A stretch of 64,000 nt of DNA from Ferrimonas balearica DSM 9799 (GTDB lineage Bacteria > Pseudomonadota > Gammaproteobacteria > Enterobacterales > Shewanellaceae), in assembly GCF_000148645.1 (NCBI RefSeq), contig NC_014541.1:124001-188000 (forward strand), read 5' to 3'. Every line of letters begins with the position of its first letter. The stretch's first letter is position 1. The notes beneath the pieces were generated by a model, which saw nothing but the letters and a program-made list of their open reading frames with translations, was not told where the DNA came from and did not search any database. The position numbers and the translations under genes were made by a program. Below, piece by piece: positions 34,684-35,604 of this stretch.

Positions 34684-34854
34684 ATGGCTAAGAAAGGCAT
34701 TCGTGAGAAGATCCGCCTGGTTTCCTCTGCTGGTACCGGTCACTTCTACACCACCGACAAGAACAAGCGTAACATGCCGGAAAAATTCGAGATCAAGAAG
34801 TTTGATCCGACCATCCGTCAGCACGTTATGTACAAAGAAGCCAAGATCAAGTAA
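34684..34854 (+). CDS. rpmG: 50S ribosomal protein L33
   Basis: 56 codons: [20 protein letters not shown], then [20 protein letters not shown] and [16 protein letters not shown]. This is L33 of the zinc-free type, because the paired Cys-x-x-Cys motifs of the zinc form are absent. AAGGAG lies upstream, seven bases from the ATG. It is cotranscribed with rpmB and ends just before a strong terminator. Confidence 0.98.
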
Positions 34855-34873
34855 TTGATTTTTGCCTCTCGCG

Positions 34874-34899
34874 AAAACCCGGCCTCGGCCGGGTTTTTT
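34874..34899 (+). terminator. intrinsic terminator of rpmB-rpmG
   Basis: AAAACCCGGCC / GGCCGGGTTTTTT stem with a tiny loop, 20 bases after the rpmG stop. Confidence 0.9.
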
Positions 34900-34932
34900 G
34901 TTATCCGGGCAACGGGTTTCTTAAATAACATT

Positions 34933-34955
34933 ATGCAAATGATAATTGTTTGCAT
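34933..34955. promoter_or_regulatory. Fur-box-like palindrome overlapping a promoter
   Basis: ATGCAAA-TGATAATTG-TTTGCAT is a 23-bp palindromic site. Its inner 19 bases match the Fur consensus (GATAATGATAATCATTATC) at 13 positions, including the core AATGATAAT. GATAAT at 34941-34946 can also serve as a -10, with TTCTTA 17 bases upstream as a weak -35, so bound Fur would block RNA polymerase. A second possible promoter is TTGCAT (34950-34955) with TATGGT 17 bases on. Confidence 0.7.
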
Positions 34956-35064
34956 TTGGTGTTGGGGCGGAGTATGGTGGTTTTGTGATGACAGCATTTT
35001 TCATCGCATCCCTGCAAAAACTCACACAGCTTCGGCCTTCCCATTTGGGAAGGCCGCTTTTTTT
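34953..35064 (+). ncRNA. candidate iron-regulated small RNA (RyhB-like position and layout)
   Basis: About 112 nt lie between the Fur-box promoter and a near-perfect intrinsic terminator, with no credible reading frame of their own. The 80-codon open frame across the region lacks a ribosome site and starts before the rpmG terminator. The middle (34989-35012) contains TGACAGCATTTTTCATCGCA and then TCC, which loosely resembles the RyhB core as I remember it (GACATTGCTCACATTGCTTCC). It is unpaired with the terminator stem and could pair with ribosome-binding sites. Size, terminator and Fur site all fit a RyhB-type RNA. The alternative is a Fur-regulated leader with an attenuator for the gene at 35137. 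Confidence 0.6.
35033..35064 (+). terminator. strong intrinsic terminator of the candidate small RNA
   Basis: CGGCCTTCCC / GGGAAGGCCG, a perfect ten-base stem with a four-base loop, then C and seven T. It is about 70 bases upstream of the next start codon, so it does not belong to rpmG, which already has its own terminator. Confidence 0.88.
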
Positions 35065-35136
35065 AAGTGGCTGACAAACCGGCCGATAAAGGGTTGAATG
35101 GGTTCAGTTCCACCATTCGCTTGGAGGAGGCAGGGT

Positions 35137-35604
35137 ATGGCTCGATCCCGAAGAACTTATAACAACTGGCTCATTTTTCTGGTGATAGGGGCTGGTGCAT
35201 TGCTGTTTTCCACTGGTCGACTCACCGGTCCGAACAGCAACAGCTTTCCTTTGCTGCCTGAGTCAGCTGAGATCGAAGCGCTGGTTTATGGCGACCTGGT
35301 GGTGCGCGCCGAAGCCGATGGGGTTCGCTCCAGCCCGGTGGTCAGTGAAGCCCGCCTGAATGCTCTGCTGGCGGCCTGGCGTTCGGCCCGCCTGGTACCG
35401 GTGGGCGAACCGCAACCGCTGCCTGACAGCCCGGTACAGGTGGATGTCTACCTGGATGATGGTTCCGCACCGCAAACCGCGTTACTGTACCCGCAACAAG
35501 CGGCTGTGAAGATGTTGGGGCAGTCTCAGTGGTGGCGCCTGGTGAACCAGGAGATGCAGCATCTGCTGCCCCCCGACAACACGGCCGCTCCTGCATCGAA
35601 ATAA
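35137..35604 (+). CDS. hypothetical membrane-anchored protein
   Basis: 155 residues. A basic N-terminus (MARSRRTYNN) and one membrane helix (about 11-29) precede a globular part expected in the periplasm. That part has beta-rich segments such as EIEALVYGDLVVRAEADGVR and QVDVYLDDGSAPQTALLYP. I do not recognise a family. The ATG at 35137 has GGAGGAGG six bases upstream. It lies 9 bp before mutM in the same direction and may be cotranscribed with it. Confidence 0.7.
   Translation: MARSRRTYNNWLIFLVIGAGALLFSTGRLTGPNSNSFPLLPESAEIEALVYGDLVVRAEADGVRSSPVVSEARLNALLAAWRSARLVPVGEPQPLPDSPVQVDVYLDDGSAPQTALLYPQQAAVKMLGQSQWWRLVNQEMQHLLPPDNTAAPASK

Follow-up and report, generated by a model that had tools for sequence, protein, structure and literature searches.

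Ferrimonas can respire iron minerals, and the decaheme surface cytochromes of iron reducers are costly in iron. HrrF, PrrF, NrrF and IsrR are iron- or Fur-controlled small RNAs that are unrecognised as RyhB by sequence. In Shewanella oneidensis, ryhB reportedly escaped Rfam and was found via synteny (PMC2964681), and S. oneidensis RyhB lowers mtrC and mtrA (PMC2964681, PMC5826389). The latter source also mentions as 'data not shown' that mtrC still falls under iron limitation without ryhB, from which an extra iron-dependent regulator was inferred and left unnamed (PMC5826389). MicA and RybB are sigma-E-dependent RNAs that repress omp genes, and the published sigma-E motifs are GGAACTTTT and GTCAAA (PMC1804206).

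Here we compare with these systems a locus between rpmG and an open frame at 35137 of Ferrimonas balearica DSM 9799, in a 64-kb window (the whole stretch of DNA analysed, 64,000 nucleotides, whose positions are used throughout) taken from a single-contig genome of 4,279,159 bp (G000). The original prediction, made from the letters alone, placed at this locus a Fur-controlled small RNA of RyhB type, possibly too diverged for models. No paper linking Ferrimonas to RyhB or to a small RNA was found in a literature search that was thin on subscription journals, and no report of a non-RyhB small RNA acting on mtrC or omcA was recognised among the matches listed, subscription journals being mostly outside that search.

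Results

Layout and conservation of the element downstream of rpmG

The rpmG gene (34684-34854) lies 5' of the candidate small RNA and has its own terminator, an 11-bp stem on the plus strand (34874..34897; an inverted repeat with 100% complementarity followed by a T run) that closes the preceding transcript. Further downstream are a 23-bp Fur-box-like palindrome, ATGCAAATGATAATTGTTTGCAT (34933..34955), and an intrinsic terminator (35033..35064, plus strand) with a perfect 10-bp stem at 35033-35056 and a T run to 35064. All three elements are as the original prediction described them. The frame at 35137, on the 3' side, has no Pfam family and is followed by mutM. The original prediction saw no credible ORF in between. 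Open frames there do not exceed 80 codons, and a small protein starting at the ATG within the RNA was set aside because this frame is shifted or lost in the three relatives (by eye).

GATAAT had been proposed as the -10 element. It was set aside because it has no -35, whereas a site further downstream holds its position in all four genomes that carry the element (see below). This site consists of TTGCAT (34950..34955, plus strand; 3/6 to consensus), which is overlapped by the palindrome, and TATGGT (34973..34978, plus strand; 4/6 to consensus, by eye). By eye, the -35 is kept in 4/4 genomes and the -10 reads TATGGT, TATGGT, TATAGT and TACAGT, with a spacer of 17 nt, or 18 nt in G004. Because a generic sigma-70 promoter scan found nothing at TTGCAT-N17-TATGGT, the promoter is placed by comparison between genomes. 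This comparison suggests TTGCAT-N17-TATGGT (34950-34978) as the promoter, with transcription beginning near 34985 and the RNA measuring about 80 nt rather than 112 nt. No sigma-E motif was seen by eye upstream of 34985.

The predicted RNA (34985..35064, plus strand, 80 nt) was delimited by comparative alignment of the four Ferrimonas genomes. It begins with a 5' hairpin, GUGAUGA/UCAUCGC (34985..35007, plus strand), replaced by GCGGC/GCCGC in G004. The hairpin is followed by an unpaired seed, UCCCUGCAAA (35009..35018, plus strand), whose complement forms the Shine-Dalgarno region of three genes for decaheme cytochromes, by CUCACACA (35021..35028, plus strand), which by eye is common to the RyhB-like core, and by the terminator. 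The fold of 34953-35065 beats 199 of 200 shuffles (z -2.9), and the mean unpaired probability of the seed region is 0.70-0.96. An unpaired conserved seed and an intrinsic terminator ending in a U run are two features that the predicted RNA has in common with Hfq-dependent trans-acting small RNAs.

We located rpmG in all 14 Ferrimonas genomes and inspected the 420-450 bases that follow it. The element follows rpmG in four genomes with identical RpmG, the source genome G000, G003, G007 and G004, and no such element was seen over the same span in the other ten. In the four-genome alignment, 20/24 columns of the palindrome are invariant vs 0/14 columns immediately upstream, and the 9-nt CCCUGCAAA (4/4 genomes) and CCCTGCAAA are invariant as well. 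The terminator stem is maintained through paired changes; in G003 and G007, for example, its second pair is A-U instead of G-C (by eye). The order of palindrome, -10, seed and terminator is constant and their spacing nearly so, while the flanks have diverged.

A covariance model of promoter plus RNA was run on 152 genomes of the family. It returned the four rpmG-locus copies at 111-156 bits, these being the very sequences used to build it, and nine weak matches of 25-42 bits outside the rpmG locus, some of which are bare terminators or bare Fur-like boxes and were discarded. No convincing copy was found outside Ferrimonas with this model in the 152 genomes. The original prediction had staked itself on conservation in relatives; box, seed and terminator are indeed kept, within 4/14 Ferrimonas genomes. 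Conservation in these four genomes gives good support to the original proposal that a small RNA under Fur control lies in the gap separating rpmG from the 35137 gene.

The palindrome as a putative Fur site

The match of the palindrome to the Fur consensus GATAATGATAATCATTATC at 13 of 19 positions, starting at 34935, was reproduced, but it has little significance by itself: six places in the window reach 13/19 where 0.9 are expected under a first-order Markov model, the five others all lying within frames of at least 180 codons. The palindrome stands out because it is conserved and rare in the genome, not by its score. Within 3 mismatches, the 23-mer has one other place in the 4.28-Mb G000 genome, upstream of a small membrane-protein-like frame. 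Twelve G000 sites, the window site included, lie within 3 mismatches of ATGATAATNATTATCAT, a shortened version of the motif, and the reversed control gave none. Two of these precede TonB-dependent receptors, one precedes FeoB (by Pfam) and one a RyhB-like gene, and ATGATAATNATTATCAT therefore behaves as a Fur motif in this genome; the sites L090, L091 and L095 fall within longer frames. Fur is predicted to bind the palindrome.

Relation to RyhB

The RyhB covariance-model search suggested by the original prediction gave no support for membership: RF00057 had no gathering-level match in the 64-kb window and none listed at E values up to 10 over 34800-35160, and with strict filters Rfam RyhB was found in 0/14 Ferrimonas genomes. 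RF00057 also misses a RyhB-like locus of the same genome, which makes Rfam a weak membership test. This locus, near G000:C1:4205919, has a Fur-like box and, after it, ..GCACATTGCTCACACATTGG.. and a terminator. The surrounding region is L297 (G000:C1:4205500-4206700), and L076 (G008) holds two tandem copies with the core CATTGCTCACAC that RF00057 misses too. The gene beside the RyhB-like locus is presumably elbB, although Pfam gave no family, and a nearby gene is presumably polA. Known ryhB genes lie downstream of VC0106/SO4716, and the neighbours of the window element are rpmG and the 35137 gene.

Neither the RyhB core CAUUGCUC nor the core CATTGCTC is present in the window RNA, and the likeness of its middle to the RyhB core, part of the original prediction, is real for CUCACAC(A) and does not extend beyond it. 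As for RyhB, a putative Fur box lies at its predicted promoter. In duplex calculations with sodB, a 25-nt piece of the RyhB-like RNA reached -20.0 kcal/mol vs a weak -8.0 for the unpaired region of the window RNA. With the three cytochrome leaders considered below, the RyhB-like RNA reached -3.9 to -8.8 kcal/mol. A looser run, in which a 46-nt 5' part of the RNA was paired with 150-nt leaders and long loops were allowed, gave -15.5 to -27.5 kcal/mol for the window-type RNAs on sodB (G000 -16.1; G004 strongest, -27.5), and -13.5 to -24.9 for the sodB genes of the other ten genomes, all with the G000 RNA. We set this run aside as non-discriminating and read its values as long-loop artefacts, though they are nonzero. 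After Rfam at gathering and relaxed thresholds, 60 relatives and sodB pairing had been considered, RyhB membership was rejected as the best reading, and the window RNA is probably not a classical RyhB. The 'RyhB-type, too diverged for models' part of the original prediction is not supported, in view of the missing CAUUGCUC, the weak sodB pairing and the RyhB-like gene elsewhere.

Predicted cytochrome targets

We compared 88 decaheme leaders from 14 genomes, with starts chosen by a script rule; low-scoring decaheme matches, and those starting far into the profile, were omitted. The seed complement, TTTGCAGGGA, has its first base 14 or 16 nt ahead of the start in 12/12 leaders of a three-gene block in the four genomes, and the exact 10-mer occurs in 0/24 other decaheme leaders fetched from these genomes; the G004 RNA matches the site over 9/10 seed bases. 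Among the other ten genomes, 4/52 decaheme leaders have exact TTTGCAGGGA (two in G006, two in G011), and eight more carry the 8-letter versions TTGCAGGG or TGCAGGGA at that position. The idea that the seed site is present only where the RNA is present was therefore rejected, G006 and G011 having an exact site and no RNA. Because the site occurs in Ferrimonas genomes without the RNA, the ribosome-site sequence is older or more widespread than the RNA, which may have arisen to fit it.

The three predicted target genes of G000 are adjacent, start at 1524821, 1527351 and 1529988, and encode proteins with ten CxxCH motifs each. Against NCBIfam TIGR03507 (OmcA/MtrC family), the first and third score above the cut-off, and the middle one, taken by itself, falls below it in all four genomes (108-129 bits vs 209.3). 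Their Pfam domains are MtrC-MtrF_N in the first, MtrC/MtrF II/IV in the middle and OmcA-like_N in the third. The cluster holds five decaheme genes, two of them without the seed site.

When the unpaired region of each genome's RNA was paired with that genome's own three leaders, the 12 duplexes ranged from -17.0 to -26.8 kcal/mol, and six other G000 decaheme leaders gave -5.4 to -14.9 with the window RNA. When the G000 seed region was mononucleotide-shuffled 2000 times, one of the shuffled sequences reached the weakest of the three G000 targets. As a background, 63 ATG starts in the window (frames of at least 200 codons, spurious ones included) had a mean of -9.7 kcal/mol (sd 2.9), and the best of them, at -20.5, does as well as the best G000 target. 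Because of this one start, energy alone is indecisive and conserved complementarity carries the argument.

Other copies of the seed

Genome-wide counts of TTTGCAGGGA are 71 for the four genomes together (reversed control 10) and 62 for the remaining ten (control 33), composition alone predicting about six copies per genome. G008 (15 copies, control 2) and G009 (10, control 4) are also rich in the 10-mer, and its excess is for this reason not a clean mark of the four-genome clade; the G008 and G009 copies that were read mostly do not stand before terminators. In G000 the 10-mer has 19 places: one in the window RNA, two in a sigma-E-like array, three in a second array at 525 kb, five at apparent 3' ends before terminator-like hairpins, three at Shine-Dalgarno sites and five others. 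By the copy-number standard for DNA-uptake sequences, 19 copies are too few, and this idea was dropped.

Two overlapping weak covariance matches at one G004 locus, flanked by genes that we take to be topB and sixA, led to the first array. At L224 (G000:C1:1853100-1854200, minus strand), L225, L226, L206 and L246, units that end in a terminator and carry CATCATC(C)TCCCTGCA or a near variant are arranged in tandem arrays. A seed-plus-T-run pattern found CATC(C)TCCCTGCA units, three each in G000, G003 and G004 and two in G007, and a single unit each in G001, G010 and G011, its reversed control matching twice in 152 genomes; it also matched in a second genus of this family, in 29 genomes, where many matches look like chance. 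The array lies beside a SixA-like gene in the four close genomes. Seven other genomes have weaker SixA-like matches, next to which no array was seen, and the remaining three have no SixA match. By eye, GGAACT..GTC sigma-E-like motifs stand upstream of most array units, and the third G000 unit fits worse. A longer piece of a sigma-E-like unit gave -26.9 to -32.0 kcal/mol on the three predicted targets, and -23.2 and -31.0 on two other decaheme leaders. Rfam searches of four arrays (L246 excluded) and the RyhB-like locus gave sub-threshold matches only, the best being anti-hemB at 28.6 bits vs a cut-off of 49.5, and Rfam MicA matched neither the window RNA nor the arrays. We take UCAUCAUCUCCCUG to resemble the MicA seed.

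A second tandem array is present at L324 (G000:C1:524000-527500, minus strand), L307 (G007), L296 (G003) and L298 (G004). Its units contain TCCCTGCAAA, a TCATCATC stretch and a terminator, with a site spacing of 246 bp in G000 and 221 bp in G007, and no clear promoter was seen. TCCCTGCAAA also stands before terminator-like hairpins at apparent 3' ends in G000 (L280, L283, L284, L285, L287), with look-alikes in G003 (L148, L156, L290, L292), G004 (L301, L304), G007 (L134, L142, L310), G006 (L337, L338) and G002 (L326). These copies are kept between genomes amid diverged flanks, several of them about 60 nt past a decaheme gene, and are possibly 3'-end-derived small RNAs. Among the ten Ferrimonas genomes without the element, 50 of the 62 copies of the 10-mer were read and 8 stand before a terminator-like hairpin, including two in G006 and one in G002 that lie about 60 nt beyond decaheme matches. 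G006 therefore has the target site and the seed in decaheme 3' ends, and neither the window RNA nor the array pattern.

Two further elements were noted. A near-identical GGTGTTAGGTTCRTTATCATTTCCCTGCAAAAGGCGGCGTC...GCCTTTTTTTAT occurs in L348 (G005), L353 (G013), L357 (G012) and L374 (G008), four Ferrimonas genomes without the window RNA, and is a further seed-plus-terminator candidate. In another genus of the family, presumably Shewanella, CATCTCCCTGC followed by a AGAGGTCTGG..CCAGRCCTCT terminator comes after a frame ending in NKK..KHAK (L116 in G093, L118 in G097, L121 in G103), and G067:C2:6329-6374 is a further listed match.

Discussion

We consider it likely that 34985-35064 encodes a trans-acting small RNA that is repressed by Fe-Fur and silences three MtrC/OmcA-type decaheme mRNAs when iron is scarce. 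Upon iron shortage, Fur would come off the palindrome that overlaps the -35, and transcription of the RNA would follow. Its seed UCCCUGCAAA would then pair with the Shine-Dalgarno region UUUGCAGGGA of the three adjacent decaheme mRNAs and block their translation, which would spare ten haem irons per protein together with outer-membrane export capacity. The RNA would act beside the separate RyhB-like RNA that is predicted to pair with sodB, not in its place. Transcription, Hfq use and the direction and effect of the regulation are what we infer from comparative sequence analysis.

The proposed RNA shares with RyhB an upstream Fur-like box (-26 to -44 in S. oneidensis, about -50 to -32 here), an intrinsic terminator and an iron-sparing logic (PMC2964681, PMC5826389). 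Unlike RyhB, it has no Rfam match and no CAUUGCUC core, lies at a different locus, directs its seed at decaheme Shine-Dalgarno sites and coexists with a RyhB-like gene. The likeness to MicA and RybB lies in the seed-sharing Ferrimonas array, whose GGAACT/GTC-like motifs resemble the published GGAACTTTT/GTCAAA (PMC1804206). The predicted targets of the Ferrimonas RNAs are outer-membrane proteins, as in that class. In contrast to MicA and RybB, the window RNA has a Fur-like box, no sigma-E motif that we could see and no Rfam MicA match. It differs from HrrF, PrrF, NrrF and IsrR in its predicted MtrC/OmcA surface cytochrome targets and in a seed shared with a sigma-E-like array. The window RNA thus appears RyhB-like in control and sigma-E-RNA-like in seed and target class, and a member of neither group.

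Other readings of the locus were weighed against this one. The RNA could be Fur-repressed and act mainly on other mRNAs such as those of porins or TonB receptors, the cytochrome match being generic Shine-Dalgarno complementarity; the seed does hold CCCU, which fits many Shine-Dalgarno sequences, and one of the 63 background starts reaches -20.5 kcal/mol. We regard this as unlikely, since the three clear Shine-Dalgarno sites among the 19 G000 places of the 10-mer all belong to genes of a single cytochrome cluster, and these three genes have the 10-mer in each of the four genomes. Two of ten G000 places checked separately (L281, L288) have a possible, unconvincing start 16-25 nt further on. That the RNA is instead a true but strongly diverged RyhB orthologue acting on the usual iron-using mRNAs (sodB, sdh) is distinctly improbable. 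Such an orthologue would account for the Fur-like box, for CUCACACA in common with the RyhB-like core and for the looser sodB duplex of down to -27.5 in G004, and Shewanella ryhB also escapes Rfam (PMC2964681). However, a better candidate, with a Fur-like box and the CAUUGCUC core, exists elsewhere in the genome, and the window RNA lacks CAUUGCUC and pairs poorly with sodB through its unpaired region. Rfam misses RyhB in all 14 Ferrimonas genomes and is by itself indecisive here.

That there is no RNA gene at all, the palindrome and the second terminator having no transcript function and acting, for instance, in Fur control of the downstream gene or as a terminator in reserve, is very hard to credit. 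The promoter hexamers are admittedly weak, at 3/6 and 4/6, and were missed by the scan, but palindrome, -10, seed and terminator hold their order and near spacing amid diverged flanks, and the terminator separates the Fur-like site from the 35137 gene. The Fe-Fur-repressed, cytochrome-silencing RNA is therefore the reading we retain. More tentatively, and with somewhat more doubt than confidence, we suggest that the same ten-letter seed UCCCUGCAAA, placed in several RNAs under independent control (the Fur-box RNA, sigma-E-like array units, and 3' ends, some of them of decaheme cytochrome genes), converges in every case on MtrC/OmcA ribosome-binding sites. Extracellular electron transfer would then be a hub at which RNAs bring together iron, envelope stress and other cues.

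If the cytochrome-silencing reading is true, the window RNA would make a specific candidate, from a related iron-reducing bacterium, for an extra iron-dependent mtrC regulator of the kind proposed in S. oneidensis. The seed shared with the sigma-E-like array would show separate stress systems meeting on one operon through one pairing element.
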